From assembly GCF_019977395.1 (NCBI RefSeq), contig NZ_AP024660.1, positions 2,728,001 to 2,792,000 of the forward strand: 64,000 bases of DNA. Direction: 5' to 3'. Shown piece by piece: positions 13,286 through 43,858 of this stretch (positions are counted from its first letter, which is position 1; every line of letters starts with the position of its first letter). This DNA is from Arthrobacter sp. NicSoilC5. Lineage in GTDB: Bacteria > Actinomycetota > Actinomycetes > Actinomycetales > Micrococcaceae. A program made the translations under genes and the position numbers. A model generated the notes under the pieces. The model did no database searches. It saw only the letters and a list, made by a program, of their open reading frames with translations, and was not told the origin of the DNA.

Positions 13286-13599
13286 GACTTCTCCTCAAGA
13301 ATTGAAAGTAATGATCCGCATATCTGCTGCTGGACCATGCTGCCAAGTGCGACCCACAGAATGTACGGGCAACGGTTAGTTACGCAACTTGAGCCCCTAA
13401 CTACCGGCCACCCTGGAGAAAATTACCGGGCAACCGGAGCAATTGCGCACGCTCCGCGCACTTAGCGCCTACCAAGTCTACGAGTTGACGCAATTAAAGA
13501 CCAATCGGGTGTATAAGGGCTTGCCCCTGTTGAAAGGTCACAGCAGCCGCTGGCCCCTTTTCACAGCAGGGACATAGCTTCCCCAAGCATGTTTGATGC
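13286..13599. other. Divergent intergenic region
   Basis: These 314 bases separate the rpmB operon (minus) from the flavoprotein operon (plus). Both promoters must lie here. I see no clear -35/-10 pair, tRNA or conserved RNA structure. Confidence 0.6.
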
Positions 13600-15066
13600 A
13601 TGAACACACAGCTCCTGCCGGCATCACCGGCCGCAAGCAGCTCCGGCCGCCCGGAGCTCTCACCACCGAAGATACCCGCCCGCGGCTGGTTCGCCCGCCA
13701 GTACCGCCGGCGCCTGCTGCGGACGGACTTCCTGACCGTCATTGCCTGGGCATCCGTGGCTGCCGCCATCGCCTTATGGCTGGCAGACGGCGGGGCCACC
13801 AGCATCACCTCGCCCGCCTCGCTGTTCACGGCGGCGGGAATCGTGGCCGGCCTGGCGGGTATGGACCTGGTCCTGCTGATGCTGCTCCTGGCCGCGAGGA
13901 TCCCGTTCATCGACCGCACCATCGGCCACGACCGGGCCCTGGAATTCCACGGCAAACTGGGCAAGCCCTCCCTCTACCTCCTGTTGGCACACGGCCTCCT
14001 GCTGGTCATCGGGTACGGCATGGCCGAGGGACTGGACCCGGTCAGCGAATCCATCAACCTGTGGGTGCAGGTCCCCGACATGTGGCTGGCGTTCGTCTCC
14101 ATGGCCCTGTTCATCGCCGTCGTGGTGACCTCCCTGGTGGCTGTGCGCCGGCGCTTCCCGTACGAGTTCTGGTACGTGGTCCACCTGCTGACCTACGCGG
14201 CGGTGGCAACGTCAATCCCGCACCAGTTCAGCGTGGGCGGCCTCTTTGCGGCCGGCACCTGGCAGCGGTGGTACTGGCTCGCCATCTGCATCTACACCGG
14301 CAGTGCCCTGGTGTACTTCCGCATCCTTGAGCCGGTTCTGGCCACCGCGCGCCACCAACTGACGGTGGCCCGCGTGGAGGCCGTGGCTCCGGGCGTGGTG
14401 AACATCGTCATGCGGGGACGGAAGCTGGACCAGCTGGCGGGGACGGGCGGACGCTTCTTCATCTGGCGCTTCCTGGCGCCGGGCATGTGGTGGCACCCCC
14501 ACCCGTTCAGCCTGTCCGCGGAGCCCGTGGTCAACGGCCGGGACGGCCAGGGGACGCTGCGGGTCACCGTCCGGAACCTCGGCGACGGCTCCGCCCAGCT
14601 GCTCCGGCTGCGGAAGGGCACCAAGGTGGCCCTGGAGGGTCCCTACGGATTGCTCAGCACGGCAGCCCGGACGAAGAACAAGGTGGTGATGATCGGCGCC
14701 GGCATCGGCATCACTCCCCTGCGCGCGCTGTTGGAGACCACCCCGTTCGCTCCAGGCGAGGCCACGGTCCTGCTCCGCGGCCACACTGACAAGGAGCTTT
14801 ACCTGGGCACCGAAATCCTTGACCTCTGCCAGGCGCGCGGGGCCCGGCTCTTCCACCTCACCGGGCCGCGGGGCCCTGGCCGGTCCACCTGGCTTCCCGA
14901 GGACTCGGTGCGCAACGGCTACAGCCTTACCTCCTATGTGCCGGACATCAGGGATGCGGACGTCTACGTCTGCGGCCCGGCGGCGTGGGCGGCCAATGTC
15001 ATTGCGGACGCCGGGAAGGCCGGCGTCCCCGAGGAACAGATCCATCACGAAAGGTTTGACTGGTGA
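13600..15066 (+). CDS. Ferric-reductase-like transmembrane flavoprotein
   Basis: The 488-residue protein has an N-terminal six-helix membrane domain (about 40-275) of the ferric reductase / NADPH oxidase type, followed by an FAD-binding domain (about 285-390) and an NAD(P)-binding domain (about 395-488). Two histidine pairs with the spacing expected for two hemes are visible: H117/H131 and H195/H208. HPHPFSLS is the FAD-binding motif, GAGIGITPLRAL the nucleotide-binding loop and VYVCGPAAW the C-terminal NAD(P) motif. It should pass electrons from cytosolic NAD(P)H across the membrane. Its stop overlaps the next start by 4 bases (GTGA). The gene order suggests that the covalently flavinylated FMN protein downstream is the acceptor; ferric iron is an alternative. 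Confidence 0.85.
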   Translation: MNTQLLPASPAASSSGRPELSPPKIPARGWFARQYRRRLLRTDFLTVIAWASVAAAIALWLADGGATSITSPASLFTAAGIVAGLAGMDLVLLMLLLAARIPFIDRTIGHDRALEFHGKLGKPSLYLLLAHGLLLVIGYGMAEGLDPVSESINLWVQVPDMWLAFVSMALFIAVVVTSLVAVRRRFPYEFWYVVHLLTYAAVATSIPHQFSVGGLFAAGTWQRWYWLAICIYTGSALVYFRILEPVLATARHQLTVARVEAVAPGVVNIVMRGRKLDQLAGTGGRFFIWRFLAPGMWWHPHPFSLSAEPVVNGRDGQGTLRVTVRNLGDGSAQLLRLRKGTKVALEGPYGLLSTAARTKNKVVMIGAGIGITPLRALLETTPFAPGEATVLLRGHTDKELYLGTEILDLCQARGARLFHLTGPRGPGRSTWLPEDSVRNGYSLTSYVPDIRDADVYVCGPAAWAANVIADAGKAGVPEEQIHHERFDW

Positions 15067-15608
15067 AAATTCGCGGAACAGTCGCAGCAGCTTTGGCCTC
15101 CGCCGGGATCCTCCTGGCGGGCTGGCAGACAGGCACGCAGGCCGGCGGCATCAGCACCGTCGCATCAAGTACGACGGCGACCGGCACCACGGGTGCAACA
15201 GGCACCGGGTCCACGGGGACGGGTTCGTCCGGGTCGGCCGGGTCCTCCAGCTCATCGGGCACCGCAGGGTCTTCCGGGTCAGCAAGCTCCTCCGGGTCCT
15301 CCGGTTCGTCCAGTTCGTCCAATTCCTCCGCGTCCGGCACCTACAAGGGCAACACCGTCCAGACCCGGTTTGGCCCCGTGCAGGTCCAGATCACGGTGGC
15401 GAACGGGAAGATCACCGATGTCACGGCGCTGCAGCTGACCAATACGGACGGCAAATCCATCCAGATCAGCAACCGCGCGGCACCCCTGCTCCGCAGCAAG
15501 GTCCTGGCGGCGCAGTCTGCCAATGTCCAGACCGTCAGCGGCGCCACCATCACCAGCGACGCCTACCTCACCTCACTCCAGGCAGCCCTCGATGCAGCAA
15601 ACCTCTAA
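15063..15608 (+). CDS. Exported FMN-binding domain protein
   Basis: The 181-residue protein starts at a GTG overlapping the upstream stop. It has an N-terminal signal or anchor segment (about 1-25), then a low-complexity Ser/Gly/Thr linker (about 35-92), then an FMN-binding domain (about 93-181). The SGAT motif at residues 159-162 is the site where ApbE attaches FMN to the threonine (T162), as in the NqrC/RnfG-type domain family. The long flexible linker would let the flavin domain swing outside the membrane. The neighbours, a transmembrane reductase and an apbE gene, support extracytoplasmic electron transfer. The final acceptor is not known from the sequence. Confidence 0.85.
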   Translation: MKIRGTVAAALASAGILLAGWQTGTQAGGISTVASSTTATGTTGATGTGSTGTGSSGSAGSSSSSGTAGSSGSASSSGSSGSSSSSNSSASGTYKGNTVQTRFGPVQVQITVANGKITDVTALQLTNTDGKSIQISNRAAPLLRSKVLAAQSANVQTVSGATITSDAYLTSLQAALDAANL

Positions 15609-16419
15609 CCCCCTGCCCGCCACGGCAGGCACCACCCTGAAGGCCCGCACCTTTGACTGCATGGGAACGGTCATCGGCCTGACACTGCCGGTGGACTCCC
15701 CCGCGGAAGGGCAGCCGGGGCTCGACGAGCTCGCAGCCGCCACCGCCGTCGTCGAACGCCTGTTCCGGGACCTGGACGAAACGTTCAGCCTGTACCGCCC
15801 CGATTCGGAAGCCAGCAGGCTGGCGCGCGGTGAACTGACGCTGCCCCGCGCCTCGGCGCAGATGCGCGAGCGTTATGCCGAAGCCCACGAGTGGCGGCTG
15901 CGCACGGAAGGGGCCTTCACCCCTGAAAGGCCAGACGGGGTGCTGGATCTGTCCGGGATCATCAAGGGCCATGCCATCCGCGCGGCCGGGACGTCGCTCG
16001 TGGCCCTGGGCCGCCGGGACTGGTGTTTGAACGCCGGCGGCGACGTCCTGGTCAGCGGTTCGCCGCACCCCGGCAGCGCCGAACCCTGGAAAGCCGGCGT
16101 GGTGGACCCTGCCGACCGACTGACCCTCATCACGGGATATCCGCTGGGCGGCAACAGCCGGCACAGCGCGATGGCCACCTCCGGCTCCGCTGAACGCGGC
16201 GAGCACATCTGGCGGGTGGGAAGCAGGGCCGGTGACGACGGGTTTGTCCAGGTCACCGTTGCCGCCGGGGATATTGTCACCGCCGACGTTCTGGCCACGG
16301 CGATCGTTGCCGGCGGGACACGGATGCTGGACCGTGCCGCGGACAACTGGGACGTTGCCGTGCTGGCCATCCGCGCGGACGGCTCGATCCTGGCGACTCC
16401 GGCGTTCCAGCCGGGGTAG
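15592..16419 (+). CDS. apbE: FAD:protein FMN transferase (ApbE)
   Basis: The 275-residue protein is an ApbE-family flavin transferase, which moves FMN from FAD to a threonine in target proteins. Visible are the N-terminal FDCMGTVIGL, the DLSGIIKGHAI region (about residues 121-131) and the GGDVLVSG loop (about 147-154). I chose the ATG at 15592, which overlaps the end of the FMN-protein gene by 17 bases and fits translational coupling; a longer frame exists from 15523. The protein has no obvious signal peptide and is shorter than Gram-negative ApbE (about 330-350 residues), so the side of the membrane on which it acts is uncertain. Its likely substrate is the upstream gene product. Confidence 0.88.
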   Translation: MQQTSNPLPATAGTTLKARTFDCMGTVIGLTLPVDSPAEGQPGLDELAAATAVVERLFRDLDETFSLYRPDSEASRLARGELTLPRASAQMRERYAEAHEWRLRTEGAFTPERPDGVLDLSGIIKGHAIRAAGTSLVALGRRDWCLNAGGDVLVSGSPHPGSAEPWKAGVVDPADRLTLITGYPLGGNSRHSAMATSGSAERGEHIWRVGSRAGDDGFVQVTVAAGDIVTADVLATAIVAGGTRMLDRAADNWDVAVLAIRADGSILATPAFQPG

Positions 16420-16442
16420 GAGAGGCGCAGCCAGGACCCGCG

Positions 16443-17204
16443 CTACAGCCGCGTGAGCTGGGGGTACTTGGCCTGCAGGTTGTCCCCGGAGGATTTCCCG
16501 GTGACGCGGCGGACCACCCACGGCGCCGCGTATTCGCGGAACCACTGGGCGTTGGCACGGATGGCGTCGGCCCCGCTCAGTTCCGGCACCGGAGTCATGG
16601 GCGGGACGTCGATGGAGTGGTCACATTTGAGGACCTCAAGCACGCGCTTGGCCATGTTCGCGTGGCCGGCGGCGGACATGTGCATCCGGTCGTGGGCCCA
16701 CATGCCCCAGTCGTAGTACTCGCTGAAGCGCCAGTAGTCCACCAGCAGGGCGCCGTGGTCCCCGGCGATCCCGCGGACCAGTTCGTTGTAAATGGCAGTG
16801 CGGCCCCGCATGGTGCCGAATACCTTCGAACCCCGGGCGTCGAAACCCGTGAACATCACCACGGTGGCGCCGGTGGCAGCGAGCTTCGCCACGGCGTCGT
16901 TGTATTCCACGAGGAGATCATCGATGTCCACGCGCGGGCGGAGGATGTCATTGGCGCCGGCGTAGATGCTCACCAGGGTGGGGTTGAGTTCGACGGCGGC
17001 GTCCACCTGTTCAGCCAGGATTTGGCGGAGCTTCCTGCCACGGATGGCCAGGTTGGCGTAGCCGAAGTCCGGGTCCGCGGCGCAGAGCTGTTCCGCCACA
17101 CGGTCGGCCCATCCGCGGACACCGTTGGGACGTGCCGGGTCGTCGTCACCGACGCCTTCGGTGAAAGAGTCGCCGAGTGCCACAAACCGGGAAGTGAAAT
17201 CCAT
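16443..17204 (-). CDS. SGNH/GDSL-family hydrolase
   Basis: The 253-residue protein is a cytoplasmic SGNH hydrolase (esterase/lipase type). Block I is FVALGDSFTEGVG with catalytic Ser12. Block III is YAGANDIL with the Gly and Asn, and the C-terminal DRMHMSAAGH gives the Asp and His. I start at MDFTSRF (ATG 17204); the frame could extend 12 codons further, but residues before the beta strand are not expected. It is paralogous to the gene at 18108-18977. The substrate is unknown. It converges on apbE with a 23-base gap. Confidence 0.85.
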   Translation of the reverse strand: MDFTSRFVALGDSFTEGVGDDDPARPNGVRGWADRVAEQLCAADPDFGYANLAIRGRKLRQILAEQVDAAVELNPTLVSIYAGANDILRPRVDIDDLLVEYNDAVAKLAATGATVVMFTGFDARGSKVFGTMRGRTAIYNELVRGIAGDHGALLVDYWRFSEYYDWGMWAHDRMHMSAAGHANMAKRVLEVLKCDHSIDVPPMTPVPELSGADAIRANAQWFREYAAPWVVRRVTGKSSGDNLQAKYPQLTRL

Positions 17205-17260
17205 GCGGTTAGTTTGCCACCCGTTGCCGGAAGCAACCAATCGCCCGGGATGCTCTCGGG

Positions 17261-17746
17261 TCAGGCCTGGGTTTCGCGCAGGATCCAGTGGTCCGAGTCC
17301 AGGCGTCCCACCACTTTTTCACCGATCCGCGCCAGGTCCAGCACGTCCTGTTCAGTCAGGGCATCGAGGAACAGGTCACGGACGTCCTCAACATGCGCCG
17401 GGGCCAGGCCGACAATCGTGGCCATGCCTTCCTCGGTGAGGTGGGCCGTGGTCACCCTGGCGTCGTGGGGGTGCGGGCGGCGTTCCACCCAGCCGCGCTT
17501 CTGCAGCTTGGTCACCACGTGTGAGAGGCGGGAGAGGGAGGCGCTGGTGCGGGCTGCGAGCTCGCTCATGGGCAGGAACCGGTCCTCGGCTTCGGACAGC
17601 ATGGCCAGGACGGTGTAATCGAACAGGGACAGTTTTCCCGCGGCGTGCAGCTTGGTGTCCAGGGCGGCAGGCAGCAGCGTATTGATGCTTACCAGCGCCA
17701 GCCAGGCGCGGCGTTCGTCAGCGTTGAGCCAGCGGGGTTCGGTCAT
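17261..17746 (-). CDS. MarR-family transcriptional regulator
   Basis: The 161-residue protein has the winged helix of the MarR family at about 57-125 (ELAARTSASLSRLSHVVTKLQKRGWVER, then the DARVTTAHLTEEG wing). Such proteins are dimeric repressors that respond to phenolics or oxidants. The ATG lies 7 bases after a TAGAAT hexamer (17754-17759), so the message may be almost leaderless. It is divergent from the YciI-like gene 59 bases away, which is a plausible target. Confidence 0.88.
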   Translation of the reverse strand: MTEPRWLNADERRAWLALVSINTLLPAALDTKLHAAGKLSLFDYTVLAMLSEAEDRFLPMSELAARTSASLSRLSHVVTKLQKRGWVERRPHPHDARVTTAHLTEEGMATIVGLAPAHVEDVRDLFLDALTEQDVLDLARIGEKVVGRLDSDHWILRETQA

Positions 17747-17805
17747 GTTCCCTATTCTACGATTGATCCTTCAAGTAGCTGGTGCGGCGCCGGTAGGCTT
17801 GCCCC

Positions 17806-18111
17806 ATGTATGTTGTCTCCCTCACCTACCGCGTGCCCCAGGAGATCGTCGACTTCCACAACGACGCCCACATCGCCTGGCTGCAAAAGGCGTTCGACGA
17901 CGGCGTGTTCATCGCCGCCGGACGCAAGATTCCGCGCACCGGCGGGTTGCTGCTGTCGCAGGCCGAACGGGAAACCCTGGACGCGAGCCTGGCGCAGGAT
18001 CCGTTCTACACCAACGGGGTTGCCGACTTCGAAGTCATGGAATTCCATGCAGGCCGGGTGGCCCCGGGCTACGAAATCCTGCTGGACACCCCTCCCCAGC
18101 CCGCACCCTAA
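17806..18111 (+). CDS. YciI-like protein
   Basis: The 101-residue protein has the ferredoxin-like YciI fold signature: N-terminal YVVSLTYRVP, then HNDAHIAWLQKAFDDGVFIAAG, with the conserved histidine and aspartate of this family. YciI proteins are small dimeric enzymes or enzyme domains of mostly unknown function. A TAGGCT hexamer at 17794-17799 places transcription start at or next to the ATG (leaderless). Its stop codon overlaps the end of the convergent SGNH gene by 4 bases. Confidence 0.8.
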   Translation: MYVVSLTYRVPQEIVDFHNDAHIAWLQKAFDDGVFIAAGRKIPRTGGLLLSQAERETLDASLAQDPFYTNGVADFEVMEFHAGRVAPGYEILLDTPPQPAP

Positions 18112-18977
18112 GGCGGGCTGCTTCCCGAAGGTATGCTGCCGGCGTCGGACGTTCCGGCGGCGAGCTTCTTCAACCCGCCGTTCCGCGGAACCTTCACCGG
18201 CTGGGGCCAGCGCGGGGTGAGGGTGTCCCCCAGCGTGACCCCACGGAGCTTGCGGCCGAAGAGCGGCAGGACCCAGTCGTGGACCCAGCGGCGCTGGCGC
18301 CGCTCCCACTCGCGCAGGCCGGGCCGGGCGGGTGGTTCCCAGTCCCTGGGTTTGATCTTGTGCGGCACGCCCAGCTGGTCCAGCACCTGCCCGGCAAGGT
18401 ATTTGTGCCCGGCTTTGGACATGTGAAGCCGGTCCGAGTCCCACATCCGCCGGTCGTGGAAGGCGTCCAGGCACCAGTAGTCCACCAGCACGGCCCCGTA
18501 TTTATCCGCGATGTCCCGGACCCGCTGGTTGTAATAAGTGTTGCGCTTCTTCAGTGGCTCCAGCAGGGCGGACACCTTGACGTCGAACCCCGTGAAGAGG
18601 ACCAGCGTGGCCCCGGTACCGGCCAGCCGGGCCACCAGCTGTTCGTAGTCCGCCATGAGCGCCGGCATGTCGGTCTTCAGGTCCAGGATGTCGTTGCCGC
18701 CGGCGTAGAGCGTGACAAGCGTTGGCCGCATCCGCAGCGCCGGTTCCAGCTGCTCGTCGACGATGTGCCGCAGCCGCTTGCTCCTGATGGCCAGGTTGGC
18801 ATATTTCCACCCTGGCTGCGCCTTGGCGAGTTTCTCGGCCACCCGGTCGGCCCACCCCCGCACCCCGTTGGGCAGCCGCTCATCCCGATCCCCCACCCCT
18901 TCGGTAAAGGAATCCCCAAGGGCAACAAACACCCGCCGCCCGGAGTCAGGAAGCAAGGGATCAGAGGACACAGCCAC
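18108..18977 (-). CDS. SGNH/GDSL-family hydrolase (paralogue)
   Basis: The 289-residue protein has FVALGDSFTEGVG, YAGGNDILDL and DRLHMSKAGH, the Ser, Gly/Asn and Asp-His blocks of SGNH hydrolases. The frame is open far upstream into the siderophore-interacting protein gene, but the real start is near the GDS block. I chose the GTG at 18977; a GTG at 19007 is equally possible, and neither has a strong ribosome site. Compared with the paralogue at 16443, it carries a basic C-terminal extension of about 60 residues (PRDWEPPARPGLREWERRQR and onward). Confidence 0.82.
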   Translation of the reverse strand: MAVSSDPLLPDSGRRVFVALGDSFTEGVGDRDERLPNGVRGWADRVAEKLAKAQPGWKYANLAIRSKRLRHIVDEQLEPALRMRPTLVTLYAGGNDILDLKTDMPALMADYEQLVARLAGTGATLVLFTGFDVKVSALLEPLKKRNTYYNQRVRDIADKYGAVLVDYWCLDAFHDRRMWDSDRLHMSKAGHKYLAGQVLDQLGVPHKIKPRDWEPPARPGLREWERRQRRWVHDWVLPLFGRKLRGVTLGDTLTPRWPQPVKVPRNGGLKKLAAGTSDAGSIPSGSSPP

Positions 18978-19028
18978 GAAAGTACCGGGACAAGTCAAAG
19001 GAATCACGACGCCGGGATGAACAGTAAG

Positions 19029-19103
19029 TGATGGGGCGTCCCGGAAATGCTGGCAGGATCTGATGGGGCGTCCCAGAAATACCGGCAGGATCTGATGGGG
19101 CGT
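19029..19103. repeat. 32-bp tandem repeat, 2.3 copies
   Basis: The unit TGATGGGGCGTCCCRGAAAT plus 12 bases occurs at 19029-19060 and 19061-19092, with a partial third copy (11 bases) at 19093-19103. Copies one and two differ at only a few positions. The array lies between the SGNH gene start and the stop codon of the siderophore-interacting protein gene. Confidence 0.85.
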
Positions 19104-19107
19104 TTGG

Positions 19108-20160
19108 CTAGCCTTCGGCTTTGCCCTGCCGCCAGTACCCCATGAACGCCACCTGTTTCCGGTCGATGCCCACGTCCCGCACCAGGTAGCGGCGCATGTC
19201 CTTGATGACGGCTGCTTCACCTGCGATCCAGGCGTAGAACGGCATGGCACCGGCGGGCATGTCCGGGTTCTTGGTGGCGCTGATGGCGGCGGTTTCCATC
19301 CGGGACGGTGTCTCCCAAAGGATGTCCTCGTCCACGTTGACGTCTTCGGGCTCGGGACCTGCGCCGGCGTCGGAGGCTTTGATGCCCACCCAGCCCGGCA
19401 CGGGGACGGCTTTGCGCACGGCCTCATGCAGCAGCTGCCCGTGTGGCCGGGACCGCCCGATGGCGGCGCCGCGGGCGAGCCAGGTGATTTCGATGTCCGC
19501 CGGGGAGCTGAGTTCGAGGAAGTCGCCTGCCTGCGGGACTTCCAGGAGGGCGTGGCCACTCATGTATGGCGGGAGCGTTTCCAGGATCGCGGAGATGGCG
19601 GGGACGGCGGTTTCGTCGCCGGCGAGCAGGACGCGCTGGGCCATGCCGGGGCGCCACTCGATACCGGAATAGGTTTCGGCGGTGACGCAGTGCGCGGCGC
19701 GGTTGTTCGGGCCGATGAGGGTGAGCGGGTCGCCGGGTTTGGCCTTGGATGCCCAGTCCGCTGCCGGCCCGGCGTGCCCATCCTCGTCGGCGTGCATCAC
19801 GAAGTCGACGTCGATCTCGGGGTACACCGCATCCAGCCGCGCCTCCCGGACCGTATAGGTGCGCATGGAGCCGCGCACGGCCGGGTCCATGGCCAACCAG
19901 TCCCGGTACCAGCCGGCGTGGGCGGTGTCGAAGGCGGGGACCGGCAGGACCGACCCGTCGGGGGCCTGCGATGGAATGACGAGCTTCACCCGCAGGTCCA
20001 GGGTGTGGCCGTGGACGCCGAAGTCACGCAAGGAGTAGCCGCCGAAGGTGATCCTGCGGAACGTGGGGCTCAGTTGCTGGACAGCTGAGACGGTCACCTC
20101 GAAGGCAAGGCTCATCGGCTGGGTTGCCGGCTGGGTGGCGGCGCTTTCCCGGGTCTTCAT
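19108..20160 (-). CDS. Siderophore-interacting protein (FAD-dependent ferric-siderophore reductase)
   Basis: The 350-residue protein belongs to the SIP family (ViuB/YqjH-like). It releases iron by reducing imported ferric siderophores in the cytoplasm. The FAD-binding part includes RRITFGGYSLRDFG (about 35-48) and SMRTYTVREARLD (about 97-109). The SIP C-terminal domain includes LLAGDETAVPAISAILE (about 178-194) and ends with the family signature YWRQGKAEG. It is the last gene of the operon. Its ATG overlaps the ATPase stop codon (ATGA). Confidence 0.93.
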   Translation of the reverse strand: MKTRESAATQPATQPMSLAFEVTVSAVQQLSPTFRRITFGGYSLRDFGVHGHTLDLRVKLVIPSQAPDGSVLPVPAFDTAHAGWYRDWLAMDPAVRGSMRTYTVREARLDAVYPEIDVDFVMHADEDGHAGPAADWASKAKPGDPLTLIGPNNRAAHCVTAETYSGIEWRPGMAQRVLLAGDETAVPAISAILETLPPYMSGHALLEVPQAGDFLELSSPADIEITWLARGAAIGRSRPHGQLLHEAVRKAVPVPGWVGIKASDAGAGPEPEDVNVDEDILWETPSRMETAAISATKNPDMPAGAMPFYAWIAGEAAVIKDMRRYLVRDVGIDRKQVAFMGYWRQGKAEG

Positions 20161-26029: not shown

Positions 26030-29000
26030 TCAGCGAAGGACGATGTCCACCGGGTTCGCCTCCGACCGCCAGGCGCCCTCCTCGCCGGCGCGGGGACGGA
26101 TCACCGGCGCTGTGAGGACACCGGAGCGGTTGGTGCGCCGGTCCCGGAGGATCTCGGTGACGGAGCCCAGGTGCCGGGACAGGTCGATCACGTTTTCAGG
26201 TGCGGCCAGCAGCAGCTGGAATCCGAATTCGTGCAGCGCCTTAATTCCGGCGCCGGCGAACTCCTCCGACGCGAGCACAAAGGCCTCGTCCATCATCACG
26301 GTGCCGTAGGTGGTGAAGCCCTGCTCGGCGATGCCCAGCTGGTAGCTCAGGGCCGCGGCCATGATGAAGGCGGTGAACCGTTGCCGCTCGCCGCCGGACA
26401 TGGAGCCGGTGTCGGCGTGCATGAACACTTCGGTCTTCTTACCGCCACGGGGGCCGGTGACTTCCCGGTGCTCCTTGCACTGGATGAACAGGTGCCCGCG
26501 CACGTCCAGCACCTCGGCCCGCCACCTCCGGTCCTCGGGCGCCTGGGAGCCAAGCCGCTTCACCAGCGTCTCCAGGGATTTGTAGCGGGCGGTGAGCTCG
26601 CCGTCGTCGTCCCCCTCAGCGCCGGAACCCTCCGCCCGGCCGGCCTCCGATTTGGCCGGGCGGCTGTGCCGGGCCTTCAACGCGTTCTGGATGGCATCCT
26701 TGAACTGCTTGGCCGTCGGTGGCAGCGTCTGCTTGATGTCCAGTTCCAGGTAGCTGCCCTCGTGGAAGTTCACCTGCGACAGGATGCCGTTCAGGGGCAG
26801 GATGCGGCTGGTGATGGAGCGGCGTTCCTCGTCCAGCAGGTGCAGCAGGGTACTGAAGGACTCGTGCGTGCGCTGGTTGAAGAACTGCCGGAACTCCGCC
26901 TCCTGCGCGGGCAGGCCGTCGTTCACGATCGCGTGGTAGCGCGCCTCGAATTCGCTCGCGGCGCCGATGCTGGTGCCGTGGTCCGCCGAGATGGCGCTGC
27001 CCCACTCGCGCACGAAGCCTTCGAAAATGCGGGTAAGCCGCTCCGCCGTCGCCTGCCCCCGCGACTCCGCGGTGTGCAGTTCGCCCAGCAGCGCGGTCCG
27101 CACCCGGTTGGCCAGGTTGTCCAGCTCGTGCATTTCCGTGATCTCGCCGAAGTCGGCGAAGTAGGGTTCCAGGGCTTTGACGGTGGCGTCCGACGGCGGC
27201 GCCTGGGCCAGGCGGTCGCGCGCGGCTTCCAGCAGGCTGTCGGCAGCCGTCAGCTGGCGGTCGAGTGCCTTGTATTCGCTTTGCAGGACCGCTGCGGACT
27301 CGGTGCTGGACTGGTGCTTGTGCCGGACTTCCTCGATGGTGGCACGCAGCGGCTCCAGGTCCGCCTGTGCCGCCAGGGCATCCTTGAGCCGCTGCTCGAT
27401 CCGCGCCAGCTCATCGGCCGCCACCGCGGCAGACACCTGTTCCCAGGGACGGTCGTCTTCCGCGATCCGGCGCAGTGCGTCAAGCTGCCGGCTCATGCCC
27501 TGGTGCGAATCCTCGCGGCTCTGCGCCAGTTCGGCGGCCTTGGCCACTTCCTGCCGGAGGTCCTCCACCTGCCCGGCCACGAGCTCCAGCTTGGCCGCGT
27601 TGTCGAAGCCCAGGACGTAATCCTGGCGGCTGGTGAACCGGTCGTCCTTCTCCACCGTGTGGCGGTTGCGCTTGACCACGCCGCCCAGGCTGAGGCCCTT
27701 GTCCAGGGCGGCCAGTTCGTCAGGATCCTCCACGCAGGGGTAGGCGAAGTCGAGGGCGATCCGCTCGCGGACCCATTCGCCGGCTTCAGCAGCCGCACCC
27801 GAGGCGAGGATGTCCAGCTTGGTGAGCAGGTCGCCGTCGCGCGCGTCCTCCACGGCGAGCGCGCCGCCGGCGAGCGGCTTGGAGACATCCACGGCCCGCA
27901 GCGCGCCGCGGACGTTGTGGTCGTTGAGGTAGCGGGTCACGGCGCCGAAGTGCTCGCCGGGAACCAGCAGGGTGGTGGCCAGGTTGCGCAGCGCCCGTTC
28001 GGCAGCGGGGCGCCACCGTTCCTCCCCTTCGGCGAGGTCCATGAGCTCGCCGGCGAAGGGCATGCGGTCCTCGGGGATGCCGGTTGCCGCGGCAATGGCG
28101 GCGCGGTTTTCAATGCTCGACGGCGGCAGCAACGATTTGCGCGTCTTCAGTGAGACGAGTTCCTGCTCAGCCGCGGCCAGTTCGCGTTTCCGGCTGGCGT
28201 GCGCGTCGAACGCCTCGAACCGCAGCTCCTGCAGGGCCTGCGAATCATCCTTCAGCTCGGCGGACCGGGCCGCCGCCTGCTCGTGTGCCTGCTCCCAGCC
28301 GGCGGCGCTCCACTCGAGCTGCAGGCCGGCGTCGGCCAGTGCCTGCTGGGCTGCCTCCTCCACCTGTTGGCGGAGTTTCAGGCCAACCCGGGCGTTCTCA
28401 AGCGACTGCTCGATTGCCGAGATCGCGTTGCCGCCCTGGTTGTTGTAGTCGGTTTCAAGCTGCCGCAGCTCCTTGGCCAGGCCGTCCCGGACCGCACGCT
28501 CGGCGCCGAGTTCCTTGGCCTTTGCCTGCGCCAGCTCGCGGAAACGTACCAGGGTCTTCTGGTGAACCGTGACGGCCAGCTGCTGCCGGTACGCCTCGAA
28601 CTCCCCGCCCACCAACTCCCGGAGCCGGTTGGCATCCAGCAGCGACTGCGCGTACTCCCTGTTCAGTCCCGGGACCGGAGCCAGCTGGTCCCGCTGCTGC
28701 CGGACGTCCTCGAGCCGCTGGCGGATGGACATCAGGTTGCTGAACTCCTCCACCACATCGTCCGCGGCGGCCAGCGTGGCAGGAGCATCCAGGACCTGGT
28801 CGCGGAAGAAGGTGTTGACGCTGCCGCCGAGGCCCTTGCCGGCCTGGATGACGCGCAGCAGGGGCAGGGCCTGGTCCGAGCTGATCCCCAGGAGGCGCCG
28901 GAACCGCTCCGCGAATGCCTTGTGCACGTCGAACACCTGGGCGTGCGGGAAGAGCGTCTCCAGCGCGCCTTTGGTGAAGCGCTTGTCCGCGATGCCCTCC

Positions 29001-29491
29001 ACCGCCTCAAGGTCCAGCGGCACGTTGTCGATCAGGTAGAACCGGCCCACGCTGGACTCGGTGCCGTTCTTTGGCAGGTCGAACAGGGCCGAGACCGTCA
29101 CCCGTGTCCCGGCGGCGTTGTCGAACGTGAGGGCGACGGCGGACCAGGTGGCACCCGGGCGCTGGAACGCGCTGGCCGAGCCCTCGCCCACGGCCTTGTC
29201 CCCCACCTTGCCGCGCATGTACGTGAAAGTGGTCCGCTTGTCCTCCACGGCACCCGAACGCTGCGCGGCGGCCTCGTTCGACCTCGGCCGGGCGTCGAAC
29301 ACCCGCAGCATCGCATCGAACAGCGTGGACTTGCCCACGCCGGAGTTACCCGTCAGCAGGGTTCCGTTCCGGTCCACGTGCATCGTGTGCGCGCCGTGGA
29401 ACGTCCCCCAGTTGACCACCTGCACCAGCGCCAGGCGCATCTGCCCGGGGTTGGTCACGTCCCCCAACGGAAGCATGCTCGCGATCGTCAC
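26030..29491 (-). CDS. jetC: SMC-like ATPase JetC (MksB-type) of a Wadjet-like system
   Basis: The 1153-residue protein is an SMC/MukB-like ATPase. Walker A is GNSGVGKS at 48-55. Two long coiled-coil stretches (about 255-480 and 690-900) flank a hinge-like middle. The ABC signature SGGERQR starts at 1032 and Walker B is [10 protein letters not shown] at 1062-1071. A short acidic, low-complexity insert ([12 protein letters not shown]) lies near 955. In Wadjet systems JetC with JetA and JetB forms a loop-extruding complex that recognises circular plasmids, which the nuclease JetD cuts. The start overlaps the jetB stop (ATGA). No jetD follows: the next gene, 183 bases downstream, is an unrelated lipoprotein. 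Confidence 0.9.
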
Positions 29492-30393
29492 TTGGTCACC
29501 TCAGTCTTGCTTTCGTCCGCCTCGGCACCGGCGTCGTCGTCCCCCGCACCGTCCTCGTCCTCGTTCTCGTTCGACGAAGAGTCATCGAGGTCCAGCATTG
29601 CCTCTGTGCCGGCGGCGTCGGCCGAAGCCGCTACCAAGGCCTCGATGTGGGCCGGGATGTCGCCGATGTTTTCGAACGGGAGGGCCAGGGGCAGGGCGTT
29701 GGAGATGGTGTAGACGTCGTCCAGCCCAGTGGGGAGCAGGAGTTGGCGGGCCAGGAGCTTGGTGATGGCTCGCGTGACCACGTCCGAGTCCCGCAGGGCG
29801 TCCTGCTGGCCGGCGGGCTGGTAGTGCGCCACCAGGTCCGTGATTTCCTCGCGGGTGATGGTGGGGTCCGTCTGGGCCGTGACGTGCCGGTCCAGCAGCA
29901 GGCGCAGCCGGAGGAGCACGATGGTTTCCACCCGGCTGAGGGCGCGCTGCTGGCGCAGGATGCTGGACCGCGTGTTGCCGCCGATCACCTCCGGATCCAC
30001 GGGGCGCAGGACGGCGATCTTCCGCTCGTGGTCCAGCTGCAGGGTCAGGAACAGCTCGGAAAGGCGGCTGCGCAGGATCACCTGGTTGTCCAGCAGCACC
30101 GTCCAGAGCTTTTCGTCCCGGCCGCCGTCAATGTAGGGGCCCTTGAGGAGCTTCACCAGGGCCTGCCGCACCTTCATCGACAGGACTCCGGTGTCGCCGG
30201 GGAACAAGGCGGCGCCGTCGACGAAGGTGTCGCGGGGTGAAACTGCAAAGGGGTACTCAGCGCCCGATGCCGCCCCCGCCCCTTCGCCGCGCGGCTGATC
30301 TTCGATCAGCCCAGCGCGCGGCTCCGACAGGCCCGATGCCACTCCCTGGGCGGCATCGGGCGCTGGGGTCGTGTCGTGTGAAACCTCAGTCAT
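29488..30393 (-). CDS. jetB: JetB (DUF4194, MksE-like) subunit
   Basis: The 301-residue protein matches DUF4194, the MukE/MksE-like winged-helix partner of the SMC complex. Its core runs from about 65 to 255, with [20 protein letters not shown] and [20 protein letters not shown]. The N-terminal 45 residues are low-complexity. The C-terminal tail after about 265 is strongly acidic ([20 protein letters not shown]), which is unusual. It overlaps jetA by 8 bases and jetC by 4 bases, so the three are one operon. Confidence 0.87.
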
Positions 30394-31843
30394 CTGAATC
30401 CTTTGCGAGCGTGACCACCGGCAGGTAGGCCTTGCGGGTGGAGCCGTCTATCTGTTCGAAGTCCAGGCCATCCCAGGCGCCGCGGTTGAAGTCCGCCCCG
30501 GCGTGGAGGGCTTCCGACAAGAGGGCGCGGATGGTGTTGATGTGCTGCTCTTCGGGCGGCAGCTGGTGCCAGGCATCGGCAAGGGTTGCAGCTCCTGCCA
30601 TGGCCGCCCGGACCACCGCCGGTTTGGCCTTGCCGGTCCTCGGCGAGCGCACCCGGTCCGAGTCCGTGAAGGCGATGGGATCGGCCAGGCGGGGCGGTGC
30701 CGCGAACTCGTCGGGATCGAAAAGCTTCACCATGGACAGGGACTCAAAGCCGGCGTTGTAAAGGACCGGCCCGGGGACCAGCCCAGGGCGTTCCCGCTCG
30801 TACGGCAGGGAACGGATGGCCTGCTCCGCTTCGCGCAGGACCTGCCGCAGCCGGACCGACTGGCGGAAGTCGTCGCTCTGGACGTAGGTGTTGAGGCTTT
30901 CGCTCAGCTTGCCGTAGATGCGCTGGATCTGGCTGTGCTGCTGGCGGAGTTCGGCCACCAGGTTCTTCAGCGTTTCCCGGTCGTCGGGCGAGAGGTCGTC
31001 GGCGAACTGCCGGCTCAGCACCTCGCCGATCGCCGACCGGAACCTCAGCTGCTGCTGCGGATCCTCCAGGAACGCCGTGAAGGACCGGAACGTCCTGCCC
31101 TCGGGACTTTGGCGGAGCCGCTTGTCGGCTTCCAGGACCTGCGCCATGGTGGCGCCCTTGGTCAGGGACTCCTCGATGATCTGGTTGCGGAGGCCGCCCA
31201 CCAGTTCCTCGATCCGGTCACGCATCTTCTTGTAGTCCGCGGGCAGGCTGGCCGCCAGGTCCAGGATGTTTCCGGCGGCCTCCACCGCTTCATCGTCGTC
31301 CAGCAGGCCGTCGAACTCGCCGGTACTGATGTCCTGGATGAGCTGCTGCCGCTCTTCGATTTCCTCTCCGAGGGCTTCGAGCCGGGCGCTCTGGTCCGGG
31401 TTGGTTTCGTTGGCGAGCTTTTCCACGTCTCCCAGCAGGGTGCCCAGGCGGGACCCGTTCAGGGTGGACCGCTCGCTGGAGAGGCTGTCCAGGAAGGCGA
31501 GCACACGGGCCGCAGGCTCGGTTGCCTCGTAAACGATCTGGCCTGACTGGTTGCGGCGGGTCAGGAACTGCCGCCGGGTCCATTCGTCGCCAAAAGCCTT
31601 TCCGTTGGCCCCTCCTCCCAGCCCGGGATCCTGGCGGCGGAGCTCCTCAAGGAAGGAGTCGACGTCGGCATGGAATTCCTCGAGCGGAACCTGCGGCCGG
31701 GTGCGGGTGAAGGAAGCCTGGAGCACGGCAATCACCCACGGCGCCGAACGCGTCAGGGCCCAGGCAGGTCCCTTGGTGAGGAGTTCGAGGTCCCGGAGCC
31801 GGGCGCTGATGGCGTCAGCGGATGACCTGGCGGAGCGGGGCAC
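30386..31843 (-). CDS. jetA: JetA (DUF3375, MksF-like kleisin) subunit
   Basis: The 485-residue protein matches DUF3375, the kleisin-like subunit of Wadjet/Mks complexes. The N-terminal winged-helix part (about 10-120) includes [20 protein letters not shown] and the [13 protein letters not shown] segment. A coiled-coil middle (about 150-330) and a C-terminal winged-helix part (about 420-485) follow. It starts at a GTG preceded by AAGGAGAG. It is the first gene of the operon and is divergent from a small membrane protein gene. Confidence 0.88.
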
Positions 31844-39758: not shown

Positions 39759-40142
39759 ATGACCAGCCTCCCATCCGCTCCCGCCAGTGTCCGAATCGAT
39801 GCGTGGCTGTGGGCCGTCCGCGCCTACAAGACGCGGTCTGCCGCCACTGCAGCCTGCCGCGCAGGGCATGTCCGGCTGAACGGCAACCCCTCCAAGGCTT
39901 CGGCAACGCTGGTGACCGGCGATACCGTCACGGTCCGCATGCCAGGCTACGAGCGCATCCTTGAGGTGCGGCGGCTCATTGCCAAACGCGTCGGGGCCGA
40001 GGCGGCATCGCACTGCTTCACCGACCACACTCCCCCGCGGCCCGTCCTTCCGGCGCTTGGGTTGCCGCAGCGCGACCGGGGCGCCGGACGGCCCACCAAG
40101 AAGGACCGCCGAGAGATGGAGCGGTTGCGGGGCCCTGCCTAG
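39759..40142 (+). CDS. S4-domain RNA-binding protein (Hsp15-like)
   Basis: The 127-residue protein has an S4 RNA-binding domain (about 12-75: VRIDAWLWAVRAYKTRSAAT, then GHVRLNGNPSKASATLVTGD) and a basic C-terminal tail (GAGRPTKKDRREMERL). Hsp15 proteins bind stalled 50S subunits carrying peptidyl-tRNA. I chose the ATG at 39759; an in-frame GTG lies at 39750. A TATACT hexamer at 39742-39747 is close enough for a very short leader. Confidence 0.88.
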   Translation: MTSLPSAPASVRIDAWLWAVRAYKTRSAATAACRAGHVRLNGNPSKASATLVTGDTVTVRMPGYERILEVRRLIAKRVGAEAASHCFTDHTPPRPVLPALGLPQRDRGAGRPTKKDRREMERLRGPA

Positions 40143-40158
40143 CGGACGTGCTGCCGCG

Positions 40159-40671
40159 TCAGGCACCCGCCTTGGTGCGTGCCTGCACCAGGTTGGCGAA
40201 CGGCAACCGGCCATATTCCTCCACAAAGGCAGCGTGGTAACCCGCTTCCGCGCTGCTCAGCTGGCCGGCCGGAAGTTCCTTCCACGCAACGGCCAGTGAT
40301 TCCGCGTCAGCGAGCTGCCAGACAAGCCGCCCGTCCCAGTGGCCGGGCGGCTTTCCTTGCCCAAAGTCAACGAACTCCTGGATCTGGCGCCGAAGCCCCC
40401 GGTTACCCTTGCTTCCGGGTCCGGCCTTTCCCAAGTAGAGAACGACCGCGGCGTCCACCCATTCGGTGGCCAACACGGCTTCGGGGAGGGAAGGGTCCTT
40501 CTTCTTGAAGACTCCGGCGGTGCTTTTCGTGAGAAAGCGCCCCTGGAAGTCTTCCGGCACAACGACGGCGAAGAGGCCTGTGCCCTGCGGAATCCTCATG
40601 GTTTCGAGGTTTCGGATAGGCCGGAATCCGGCGAAGCCTTCGACCTTCAGGCCCTTCCTGGTGAACTGCAT
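40159..40671 (-). CDS. Conserved protein, possibly GIY-YIG-like
   Basis: The 170-residue protein has segments GTGLFAVVVP and AAVVLYLGKAGPG followed by RGLRRQIQEFVDFG and WDGRLVWQLAD. This order (two beta strands with tyrosine and glycine, then a helix with arginine) resembles a GIY-YIG nuclease core, but the canonical GIY triplet and catalytic Glu are not clear. Treat the function as unknown. It converges with the S4 gene (16-base gap) and diverges from the DUF222 gene. Confidence 0.6.
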   Translation of the reverse strand: MQFTRKGLKVEGFAGFRPIRNLETMRIPQGTGLFAVVVPEDFQGRFLTKSTAGVFKKKDPSLPEAVLATEWVDAAVVLYLGKAGPGSKGNRGLRRQIQEFVDFGQGKPPGHWDGRLVWQLADAESLAVAWKELPAGQLSSAEAGYHAAFVEEYGRLPFANLVQARTKAGA

Positions 40672-40773
40672 AATTCATTGAACCGCATGGCACGGGCCAT
40701 TGCTGCGTTTGCGTTTTCCACATAGGGACTTTGGGTGGCCGGGATTGTCACACCCTGCTGGAAGACTTTGGCT

Positions 40774-42165
40774 ATGGAAGCGGTTTTGGAATCGGCGGCA
40801 GTACAACAGGGGGTGCGGTGCGCCGAACCTTCCAGTGTTGGTCCCACGCCATACCCGCCCGCCGCACCTTCCATTGGGGATGTCCTGGACCTGCTCGCCC
40901 GCGTCCCGGTCCCTGGGGATGGTGCGGGCATGATCGAGCAGATTCGTGGGTTGGAGCATCTGAAGTCCTTGGCGGGTGCCCGGCAGGCTGATACCGCTGT
41001 CGCTTTTGATTTATCCCAGCGGCGGGAGCAGGCCGAGGCCGGGGTCCCGGCTGACGAGCAGGGCGCCGGGGTCGCGGCGCAGATCGCGTTGGCCCGGCGT
41101 GAGTCCCCCGCCCGGGGTTCCCGGTTGCTCGGCCTGGCCAAAACCCTCACCGGCATGCCGCACACGTTCCAGGCGTTCCGGACCGGCCTGTTGAGCGAGT
41201 GGCGGGCCACGCTGATCGTGAAAGACACCATCTGCCTGAGCACCGAGGACCGGGCCGGGGTGGATGAGGAACTCGCCGCCGACACCGGCGCCCTGAACGG
41301 CCTGGGCGACAGGGCCATCATCGCCGCGGTCCGCGCCGCCGCGTACCGGCGGGACCCCGCCTCGGTCGCGAAGCGCGCCAGCCGGGCCGTGGGCGAGCGG
41401 TGCGTGAGCCTGCGCCCGGCCCCGGACACCATGACCTGCCTGACCGCGCTGCTCCCCGCCGCCCAGGGCGTCGCCGCGTACGCCGCGTTGTGCCGGGACG
41501 CCGACACCGCCCGCTCGAACGGGGATCACCGGTCCCGGGGCCAGGTCATGGCGGACACCCTCGTCGAACGCGTCACCGGCACCCCCGGCGGGATCAGCGG
41601 CGTTCAGATCCAGCTCGTCATGACCGACCACACCCTCCTGCAGGCCGGCGCCGAACCCGCACGACTGCCCGGCTACGGCACCATCCCCGCCGAACAGGCA
41701 CGAACCATCGCCCTCACAGCCCCTGGTGAGACCGACCTCAACCTCTGGGTCCGCCGGCTCTACACCGCCCCCGGCACCGGCGAACTGGCGGCCATGGACT
41801 CCACAGCCCGGCTCTTCCCGCCAGCACTGAAACGCTTCCTGCAGATCCGGGACGACACCTGCCGGACCCCCTACTGCGACGCCCCGATCCGGCACCACGA
41901 CCACGTCACCCCCTGGCACCACCGCGGACCCACCACCGCCGGAAACGGCCAAGGCCTCTGCGAAGCCTGCAACCACACCAAAGAAACCCCAGGCTGGACA
42001 GCCACAACCACCCCCGGCTCACGCCACACCGTGGCGACTACCACCCCCACCGGCCACACCTACCACTCCACAGCACCACCACTCCCCGGCACCCCACCTG
42101 CAGGAGGCACACGGTCATGCGGCTCTCAGGAACGGCGGCTAACCTTGGCGCGTGCCACCCCTTGA
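40774..42165 (+). CDS. DUF222/13E12-family HNH endonuclease
   Basis: The 463-residue protein has the long N-terminal helical DUF222 domain (about 30-330) and a C-terminal HNH nuclease domain with CRTPYCDAPIRHHDHVTPWH and GLCEACNHTKE. The zinc cysteines and HNH residues are present, so it could be active. Many copies of this family occur per genome in Arthrobacter, Mycobacterium and relatives; their role is not settled. I start at ATG 40774; a GTG at 40735 is possible. The 3' end is low-complexity (Thr/Pro/His) and overlaps the next gene by 14 bases. Confidence 0.88.
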   Translation: MEAVLESAAVQQGVRCAEPSSVGPTPYPPAAPSIGDVLDLLARVPVPGDGAGMIEQIRGLEHLKSLAGARQADTAVAFDLSQRREQAEAGVPADEQGAGVAAQIALARRESPARGSRLLGLAKTLTGMPHTFQAFRTGLLSEWRATLIVKDTICLSTEDRAGVDEELAADTGALNGLGDRAIIAAVRAAAYRRDPASVAKRASRAVGERCVSLRPAPDTMTCLTALLPAAQGVAAYAALCRDADTARSNGDHRSRGQVMADTLVERVTGTPGGISGVQIQLVMTDHTLLQAGAEPARLPGYGTIPAEQARTIALTAPGETDLNLWVRRLYTAPGTGELAAMDSTARLFPPALKRFLQIRDDTCRTPYCDAPIRHHDHVTPWHHRGPTTAGNGQGLCEACNHTKETPGWTATTTPGSRHTVATTTPTGHTYHSTAPPLPGTPPAGGTRSCGSQERRLTLARATP

Positions 42166-43033
42166 GATCCTTGTTTCTTCCTGGCAGTTCGACTGGGCCG
42201 CCGCGGCTTTCGCCGCCGTGGCCGGCATTCTGTACGGCTGGGGAATACGGTCAGCCGCGCGCCGGGGTCAGGGACGGCCAGTGTGGCGGGCGGTGGCGTT
42301 CTACGTCCTGGGCCTGGGCTCATTCATCATCCTCACCTGCGGGTTCACTGGGGTATACGGAGCGCAGCAACGGTGGGCCTTCACCATCAAATTATCCCTG
42401 ATGCTCTTTGTCGTCCCGTTGCTGATCGGCCTGGGCAAACCGCTAACCCTGGCGCGGGCAGCACTGCCGGCCAAGGGCACAACAGCCTTGGACAAGGTCC
42501 TGTCCAGCACGCCCGTACGGTTCGTCAGCAATTCATTTGGCGCACCCCTGCTGGGGCTGGCCCTCTTCTCCACGTTCCTCACGCCGGCCTTCTTCACGCT
42601 GCGGACCGACCCCGTGGCAGGCGCCCTCCTCACAGTTGGCGTGCCGCTGCTGGGCATGCTGATGGCACTGCCGATCATCGAAGAGTCCGATTTCCAGCGC
42701 TCCAGCGCCTACCTGACCCTTGAATTCATGTTCGTGTTCATCGAGTTGCTGATCGATGCGGTCCCGGGCATCCTGCTGAGCCTCAACGGCCAGGTGCTCG
42801 ACCACGTGATGTCCGTTCCCAACCCCCAATGGTGGTTCCGGGACGCTCTCCAGGACCAGCAGTTCGCCGGAAATTTGCTGTGGTTCATCTGCGAGGTGCT
42901 GGACCTGCCGCTGATCATCCTCATGTTCATCCGCTTCTCACGCAGCGACAAGAGGGAAGCAGGCGCCTTCGACGAACTGACCGACGAGCAGTTCGACGAA
43001 CTTCAAAACCAGCACCTGCGTGGGCGGCAGTAA
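42152..43033 (+). CDS. Cytochrome c oxidase assembly protein, CtaG (caa3) family
   Basis: The 293-residue protein has seven predicted membrane helices and the CtaG-type segments SLMLFVVPLLIGLGKPLTLARA and FMFVFIELLIDAVPGILLSL. Family members help insert copper into the caa3-type oxidase. The start is a GTG inside the end of the DUF222 gene. No oxidase subunit is near, so assignment rests on family resemblance. Confidence 0.8.
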   Translation: MPPLEILVSSWQFDWAAAAFAAVAGILYGWGIRSAARRGQGRPVWRAVAFYVLGLGSFIILTCGFTGVYGAQQRWAFTIKLSLMLFVVPLLIGLGKPLTLARAALPAKGTTALDKVLSSTPVRFVSNSFGAPLLGLALFSTFLTPAFFTLRTDPVAGALLTVGVPLLGMLMALPIIEESDFQRSSAYLTLEFMFVFIELLIDAVPGILLSLNGQVLDHVMSVPNPQWWFRDALQDQQFAGNLLWFICEVLDLPLIILMFIRFSRSDKREAGAFDELTDEQFDELQNQHLRGRQ

Positions 43034-43058
43034 CCATCCCGCGCCCGCTGCCCGGCAC

Positions 43059-43100
43059 CGGGAAGGGTAGTGCGGAATTCGGTGTGTCCACCCTTTCCCG
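43059..43100 (+). terminator. Hairpin, probable terminator after ctaG-like gene
   Basis: The arms CGGGAAGGGT (43059-43068) and ACCCTTTCCCG (43090-43100) pair with one bulge around a 21-base loop. It starts 26 bases after the stop codon. There is no T-run. Confidence 0.5.
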
Positions 43101-43161
43101 GGGAAGCGTAGAGTGACATAGGACGCCTGATTCTGGACGCCTCGCTGCCAAGGGAGAAATC

Positions 43162-43779
43162 GTGACGATTGATTGGGACGAAAAAAAGGCCCTGCTACAG
43201 GAACCGAATATCGCGAAGGTAACCCAACTTTGCGATGAGCTGATGGAAAAAAAGCCTGGTTCCACTGTCCCCTATATCGACCCCGTCCACGACGAGGACG
43301 AATGCAGGATCATCAGCCTCCAGGCCAGCCCCGGCAAAGGGACCGAGTCCGGGTTCGTCTCCCACAACAACGACGACGAAGCTGCCCGACGCGCCACGCA
43401 GATCTATGAGCTGGCCGAGCTGGACCCCCGCTACGTCATGCCGTGGAATGCCTACCCCTGGGTGCGTGAGAGCGGCAGCCCCTCCGCGCTGAGTGTCCAG
43501 GAAAAGACCGATGGCCTCCGTCCGTTCCGCCAGTTCCTGAAGATCAATTCCCGCGTCTCCGCCATCATCGCGCACGGCACGGACGCGTCCACATTTCTGA
43601 CCCTCTTTGAGAAGACCTACCACTCATCGCTGAAGAACAGCGGCATCAAGATCTACAAGGCCTCCGCCCTTGGCGGCAGGGCCTTTGCTGTTTCCGAGGC
43701 CAAGCAGGAAGAGCTTCTCGCCAAGAGCATCGAAACCTATCGTGACGCGATGCAGCGGGCGGGCATCCAGCACCTGTAA
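43162..43779 (+). CDS. Uracil-DNA-glycosylase-superfamily-like protein
   Basis: The 205-residue protein starts at a GTG with an AGGGAGA ribosome site. GTESGFVSHNNDDEAARRAT followed by YVMPWNAYPWV has the order of the UDG fold active-site region (glycine/asparagine-rich loop, then the strand with WN-PW) in a small actinobacterial group annotated as UDG-like. A late AHGTDA may be the counterpart of the second catalytic loop. The key histidine motif is not certain, so activity is unproven. Confidence 0.5.
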   Translation: MTIDWDEKKALLQEPNIAKVTQLCDELMEKKPGSTVPYIDPVHDEDECRIISLQASPGKGTESGFVSHNNDDEAARRATQIYELAELDPRYVMPWNAYPWVRESGSPSALSVQEKTDGLRPFRQFLKINSRVSAIIAHGTDASTFLTLFEKTYHSSLKNSGIKIYKASALGGRAFAVSEAKQEELLAKSIETYRDAMQRAGIQHL

Positions 43780-43792
43780 GGGAAAGTCCCAG

Positions 43793-43848
43793 GGTTCTTT
43801 CAGCCACGCGAGCGCATACTCGTAGGTACCCGGACCAGCGAAAGAACC
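43793..43848. repeat. Inverted repeat before PAP2 gene
   Basis: GGTTCTTTC (43793-43801) and GAAAGAACC (43840-43848) are perfect 9-base arms separated by 38 bases. They end 10 bases before the proposed start of the PAP2 gene and begin 13 bases after the previous gene. They could be a terminator stem or an operator. Confidence 0.4.
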
Positions 43849-43858
43849 AGGCTGAACC

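Follow-up and report, generated by a model that had tools for sequence, protein, structure and literature searches.

The jetA-jetB-jetC operon analyzed here lies in a 64,000-base stretch (the window) of Arthrobacter sp. NicSoilC5, positions 2,728,001 to 2,792,000 of its 4,691,366-base single-contig genome (NZ_AP024660.1), and resembles the plasmid-defense system Wadjet except that jetD, the gene for the Wadjet nuclease, is missing. Judging from sequence comparisons, we read it, with a rough probability of 0.6, as encoding a complete, nuclease-free Wadjet-type structural maintenance of chromosomes (SMC) complex that is now a conserved and mostly vertically inherited component of the Arthrobacter group, likely a DNA organizer. 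The operon is neither a broken nor a split Wadjet, and our results suggest a Wadjet weapon that was borrowed and turned into a routine DNA organizer. Since the operon is present genus-wide, holds a fixed place and is under strong constraint, a housekeeping DNA-organizing role is favored, short of proof.

The operon encodes three complete Wadjet-type subunits

The three genes overlap on the reverse strand, and open reading frames (ORFs), Pfam and PADLOC agree on the jetA, jetB and jetC features that an earlier note on this DNA had assigned to them. jetA (30386..31843, window positions here and below; GTG start) encodes a kleisin subunit of 485 residues, which matches DUF3375 over residues 22-478 (294.5 bits). 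The product of jetB (29488..30393, ATG start) is a KITE or MukE-like subunit of 301 residues with a DUF4194 match of 100.9 bits and a score against Pfam MksE of 25.5 bits, just under the cut-off of 27, and jetC (26030..29491, GTG start) encodes an SMC-like ATPase of 1153 residues with matches to AAA_29 (70.5 bits) and SbcC_Walker_B (63.4 bits). The PADLOC models of JetA, JetB and JetC scored 871, 520 and 1158 bits. According to the ORF list, jetA and jetB overlap by 8 bases and jetB and jetC by 4, the latter overlap being kept in 52 of 58 loci of the core clade, i.e., the clade of JetD-less copies that includes the window operon. A sigma-70 promoter scan found no promoter-like site, and a terminator scan gave only chance-level terminators. 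Among solved structures in the Protein Data Bank, the only convincing matches were Wadjet JetC and JetA chains (E 5e-62 and 9e-24, respectively), with entry 8q72 containing JetA, JetC and JetD(E248A); JetB had no match there, and its AlphaFold model was unusable, with a mean predicted local distance difference test score (pLDDT) of 49.9 and a predicted template modeling score (pTM) of 0.29.

Sequence patterns located Walker A (residues 48-56, GNSGVGKST; 29324..29350), the ABC signature (residues 1030-1035, SMSGGE; 26387..26404) and Walker B (residues 1064-1070, TVMMDEA; 26282..26302) of JetC, all on the reverse strand. In a set of 56 core-clade JetCs (the window, 35 genus loci and 20 family loci), the P-loop GxxxxGK[ST], the signature pattern [LFMI]SGG[EQ] and the Walker B pattern were each found 56 times; a narrower Walker A pattern missed 15 of the 56, and the general P-loop pattern caught them all. 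The three motifs, which the earlier note had reported for JetC, are therefore kept throughout, and by these sequence criteria JetC qualifies as a putatively active SMC ATPase.

The C-terminal 40 residues of JetB (29491..29610, reverse strand) had been described as an unusual acidic tail. Acidic it is, with a net 14 acidic residues, yet the core-clade median is 10 (range -5 to 17, 58 JetBs). JetD-bearing relatives show the same tendency (median 7, range -1 to 12, 22 JetBs), so the tail is not distinctive and was rejected as a special feature. IFDR, the JetD-contact motif of the JetB N-terminus, was not spotted at that end in the core JetBs listed, nor was it in the 22 JetD-bearing relatives.

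JetD is absent from the genome and from the surroundings of the operon

A search of the whole 4.69-Mb genome for JetD_C (PF09983) and DUF3322 (PF11795) gave no match, and the positive control, Corynebacterium glutamicum, was matched; by profile search, the idea that jetD lies elsewhere in the genome is rejected. Besides these two Pfam profiles, BLAST and a home-made profile underlie the absence of JetD; an effector elsewhere that has diverged beyond recognition could escape all of them. Directly beside the operon, the earlier description was confirmed: no jetD follows jetC, and the next gene, which starts with an ATG at 25846 and leaves a gap of 183 bases, has no match in Pfam, PADLOC or NCBIfam. 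Read by eye, the start of its product is lipoprotein-like. This lipoprotein was considered as a fourth subunit and rejected, as its gene is present in just 18 of 37 genus loci.

Nor does the operon appear to result from a simple loss of jetD, which a jetD at the same position in close relatives would have indicated. JetD was found at none of the 37 genus loci fetched as core copies and, within the fetched flanks (up to 6 kb, E <= 1e-3), at none of 80 loci from named relatives. When JetD proteins from the fetched loci were used as tblastn queries, no convincing JetD remnant was detected in the sequence that follows jetC (up to 5 kb) at 58 core-clade loci. The sole matching stretch had 35 residues (E 0.022, locus L141), and the JetD-bearing controls were matched in 5/5 cases.

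The JetD-less operon is present throughout the genus and held in place

A JetC orthologue (E <= 1e-150) was found in 205 of 206 genus genomes, including all 195 good ones (completeness of 90% or more, contamination of 5% or less), and DUF3375 in 204 of 206, again with 195/195 good genomes. Six genomes (G053, G056, G088, G127, G152 and G163) had two or three JetC matches, perhaps owing to a second copy or a broken frame. The nearest named JetC orthologues were those of Pseudarthrobacter sp. C4D7 (98%), Arthrobacter sp. ISL-85 (97%) and Arthrobacter liuii (97%), with Paenarthrobacter also among the matches, and all 80 named-relative loci kept, from 143 relatives found, had matches to jetA, jetB and jetC. 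What had been taken as a property of one operon is thus real, but it belongs to a lineage that is genus-wide and partly family-wide.

JetD_C was found in 92 of 206 genus genomes (88/195 good ones), in some as fragments or with internal stops. In the 84 of these 92 genomes that were compared (outside the comparison were G001, G010, G035, G088, G152, G153, G177 and G182), JetD was, by eye, always on another contig than the core copy or more than 100 kb away from it, where "another contig" alone leaves adjacency across a contig break possible. The JetDs that were opened sit in separate JetABCD operons, whose own JetABC is distant from the core: at three loci picked for a nearby JetD (L049-L051) the JetC is 24-26% identical, and three other operons have a JetA with 23-24% identity. 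Some accessory JetD genes were fragmentary or contained stops (e.g., G003, G019, G106 and G132), and the core jetABC was mostly intact. It seems that full Wadjets are gained and lost, whereas the nuclease-free operon persists.

Forty 20-kb stretches were requested, of which 37 held core copies, one per genome (37 of 206), with best JetC segments 84-97% identical to the window JetC. On one flank, an acyl-CoA dehydrogenase gene and a small ORF were found in 37/37 core loci; on the other, genes for an iron-siderophore-type substrate-binding protein and for a permease were each found in 36/37. The FBP gene was present in 15/37, fewer than the 18 with the lipoprotein gene. Median pairwise ratios of nonsynonymous to synonymous substitution rates (dN/dS) against the window were 0.077 for jetA, 0.202 for jetB and 0.077 for jetC in 35 loci, L038 and L055 being omitted for their broken jetC frames, showing that jetA and jetC are under strong purifying selection.

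Distribution in the family, order and phylum

Using the window JetA as query, 87 of 197 family genomes were matched at E <= 1e-40, and 86 of them, from 11 of 32 genera, had a core-like JetA (40-100% identity). The remaining candidate, G596 (genus g104), was rejected as core-like: its JetA is 34% identical and part of an ordinary Wadjet, whose JetD lies at a distance of about 5 kb. JetD_C was present in 49 of the 197 genomes, including 28 of the 86 core-like ones (in G539, G585 and G637 as fragments only). In these 28, JetD_C and the core JetA were, by eye, always on different contigs or more than 250 kb apart, a comparison that is limited by broken assemblies (e.g., in G532 jetA lies about 4 kb from the contig start). 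Outside the genus the operon is not universal: one genome of genus g99, G579 (350 contigs), had JetD and no JetA match.

Among 297 genomes of the order, JetA matches at E <= 1e-5 were found in 118, of which 102 were outside the family. A JetD_C search in 60 of the 102 was positive for 26 and negative for 34; JetD-less JetA-type genes are therefore common beyond the family, in more distant lineages. Among 396 genomes of the phylum, JetA matched at E <= 1e-30 only two genomes of the window genus and one further protein with 31% identity. Two other arrangements were observed along the way. In family f8 (L148, L149, L150 and L152), a distant JetD-less jetABC lies, in 4/5 loci, between a leucyl-tRNA synthetase gene and a series of DegV-like, ComEA-like and ComEC-like genes (names assigned by eye); here, too, a nuclease-free jet operon occupies a housekeeping-like site. 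In family f11 (L142-L147), a gap of about 2.6 to 8.5 kb lies between jetA and jetB in 6/6 loci, a split arrangement with no JetD there; jetC follows jetB in L147, is about 1 kb off in L145 and went undetected in the remaining four stretches.

The core copies form one branch, the JetD-less state does not

Three unrooted trees were built, for JetA (69 rows), for JetC (65 rows) and, more carefully, for JetA with 37 of those 69 rows. The core family copies formed one branch with full support in all three, and genera with more than one row clustered together within the core clade. Each tree requires five changes of the JetD label, and starred branches force 5, 4 and 5. None of 200 bootstrap trees of the careful JetA tree placed the JetD-bearing rows on one side of a branch, and the hypothesis that all JetD-less rows of the order form one group is rejected by the approximately unbiased (AU) test on that tree (p 1.2e-5). 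As the trees are unrooted, losses and gains of JetD are not distinguishable. In the two larger trees, long branches meet at the point where the core is attached to its neighbors, which drew a warning from the program.

Comparison with Wadjet, MksBEF and MukBEF

As described in parts of PMC10586767 and PMC12287153, JetABC of Wadjet is a shape-sensing, ATP-driven loop extruder, and JetD cleaves after a small circle has been extruded. The operon resembles type I Wadjet (JetABCD, MksBEFG or EptABCD) in its jetA-jetB-jetC order, in its DUF3375 and DUF4194 proteins and in its best PADLOC models, JetA, JetB and JetC. Unlike type I Wadjet, the operon and its genome lack JetD (DUF3322 plus the Toprim JetD_C), and the core operon is genus-wide and syntenic, whereas JetD is found in 92/206 genomes. 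The MksBEF of Pseudomonas aeruginosa is likewise a three-subunit, MukBEF-like complex without a nuclease alongside Smc-ScpAB (parts of PMC7485682 and PMC10586767), for which a dual role in chromosome organization and segregation is reported in PMC7485682. It differs in that the window JetB is a DUF4194 protein below the Pfam MksE cut-off; moreover, JetD-less copies do not form a single clade even inside the order, in trees made without P. aeruginosa proteins. With MukBEF the operon shares the subunit plan of kleisin, KITE and SMC, and PMC10586767 describes JetABC as structurally resembling MukBEF. At the limits that we set for the Protein Data Bank search, no MukB, MukE or MukF chain matched JetA, JetB or JetC, and PMC10586767 calls the relation in origin between Wadjet and MksBEF/MukBEF not resolved.

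The nuclease-free operon is already in print as a PADLOC row. Table 6 of PMC11719660 gives, for Paenarthrobacter lasiusi S21, a "Wadjet" JetA-JetB-JetC of 5.84 kb without JetD, beside a full type I JetABCD; that row is listed as a defense system, and the nuclease-free state is not discussed in the part of the paper around it. Members of Paenarthrobacter are among the JetC orthologues of the window operon, and the S21 JetABC is probably an orthologue of the core operon, as judged without sequence comparison. In the open-access literature, we found no account of a JetD-less jetABC as a conserved Micrococcaceae lineage.

A proposed second condensin beside Smc-ScpAB

ScpA, the one subunit of Smc-ScpAB that was searched for, is present in the window genome, so Smc-ScpAB very likely exists in it. 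ScpA appears twice because the contig end repeats an earlier part: the last 16,220 bases (4675147-4691366) are identical to 40001-56220 and are possibly an assembly overlap, and positions 1-20000 had no match at that offset.

Of the roles that the earlier note had considered, the conservation pattern favors that of a plain MksBEF-type organizer, as far as sequence can tell. By analogy with type I JetABC and MukBEF, the complex would dimerize, and it would entrap DNA and extrude loops using ATP. Without JetD, extrusion would still be expected and cutting would be impossible. Most likely it would serve, next to Smc-ScpAB, as a second condensin that organizes DNA, above all the chromosome, or assists in its segregation. 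In this it would be comparable to P. aeruginosa MksBEF, but with a JetD-less history of its own. More tentatively, and at somewhat less than even odds, housekeeping condensins that lack a nuclease and are inherited vertically may have arisen repeatedly from Wadjet motors in Micrococcales. The Arthrobacter complex would then be one such lineage, a second condensin in every good genus genome, acting on the chromosome beside Smc-ScpAB and having lived without JetD independently of P. aeruginosa MksBEF.

Several observations weigh against a conserved, vertically inherited DNA organizer. The core lineage was found in just 11 of 32 sampled family genera and is therefore dispensable on the family scale. 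In 2/37 fetched loci, L038 (G053) and L055 (G080), jetC is split, and the jetC of G083 (C1:1009372-1012845) contains one stop; these interrupted copies may reflect real decay or sequencing errors, and in L055 several neighboring genes also gave only partial matches. MksBEFG of C. glutamicum, a nuclease-bearing actinobacterial relative, acts on plasmids and has no effect on chromosome folding, as stated in parts of PMC7083940. Arthrobacter sp. ERGS1:01 carries a core-clade, JetD-less jetABC on a 754-kb megaplasmid (L185, NZ_CP012477.1); there, jetA directly follows a RecB-family nuclease/DEAD helicase gene, and JetA is 84% identical to that of a g11 genome. In Arthrobacter sp. StoSoilB13 (L186, NZ_AP024648.1), the core jetABC and most of its usual neighbors are on a record labeled as a 1.35-Mb plasmid, a placement that may be due to a chromid, a translocation or a labeling issue. 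Given the megaplasmid copy and the copy on a labeled plasmid, the lineage is not strictly chromosomal. Finally, in 12 of 14 genomes tested from five other genera (3/3 in g7, 3/3 in g110, 1/1 in g115, 2/2 in g106 and 3/5 in g11), the 9 kb upstream of jetA include a gene for a RecB-like nuclease/helicase, which leaves room for a partner there.

Alternative explanations

JetABC could still act against plasmids without cutting them, by entrapping or compacting small circles and so hindering their replication, transcription or inheritance, as proposed for Smc5/6 on viral DNA. We regard this as unlikely, though as the strongest competitor of the housekeeping role. It fits with the closest solved relatives being the Wadjet JetA and JetC and with JetABC being the part that senses DNA shape and size (parts of PMC10586767), but in the Bacillus subtilis test described there, plasmid suppression required all four Wadjet subunits. 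Presence in every good genome and a fixed place in 37 loci are also unlike the patchy JetD of the same genomes.

Another option is that the operon is an active Wadjet that works with another nuclease, encoded nearby in some relatives and elsewhere here. The best lead for such an effector, kept as a weak rival, is the RecB-like gene (cluster c10), which encodes about 1,150-1,210 residues with an SF1 helicase (e.g., L134, L139 and L141) and was found in 31 of 39 genomes searched. Besides its position close to jetA in the five genera and directly upstream of it on the ERGS1:01 megaplasmid, it lies 42-78 kb from jetA in 4/4 g99 genomes (by eye). However, it is 1.2 Mb from jetA in the window genome, and in the remaining g1, g9 and g10 genomes that have it, it lies far from jetA or on a different contig; it had no match in 3/3 g5, 2/2 g108 and 1/3 g10 genomes, all with jetABC, and it also occurs in G315, which is without a core-like jetABC. 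Nor is there a fourth gene common to all: besides jetABC, none was shared by the 22 loci compared, with c4 (ABC-transporter ATPases, judged by eye) the most widespread of the other clusters at 10/22, and JetD itself is absent from the window genome. We read the RecB-like gene as part of a shared old neighborhood of one sub-branch and as no obligatory partner. The suggestion that another effector replaces JetD is therefore left with no good candidate, there being no universal fourth gene and the RecB-like gene being 1.2 Mb away here and missing in two genera, and we consider it improbable.

Still less probable is a partnership of the core JetABC with an accessory JetD, supplied by a second Wadjet where the genome has one. 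JetD_C does occur in 28/86 core-clade genomes of the family and 92/206 of the genus, but there is none in the other 58/86 and 114/206, the window genome included, and the JetDs opened have their own, distant JetABC (JetC 24-26%, JetA 23-24% identical). A decaying remnant of Wadjet after loss of jetD, to which the missing jetD and the interrupted jetC of 2/37 genus loci could point, is strongly disfavored by a dN/dS of about 0.08, ATPase motifs in 56/56 JetCs, a JetC orthologue in 195/195 good genomes and the lack of a convincing JetD remnant after jetC in 58 loci.

Implications

A JetD-less lineage that is fixed in a tractable, non-pathogenic genus, and that in many species shares the cell with a full Wadjet, lets the role of the motor without its nuclease be asked directly. 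For the genus as a whole, calling every JetABC a "Wadjet" may over-count plasmid defense, as a JetC orthologue is present in 205/206 genomes and any JetD_C in 92/206.

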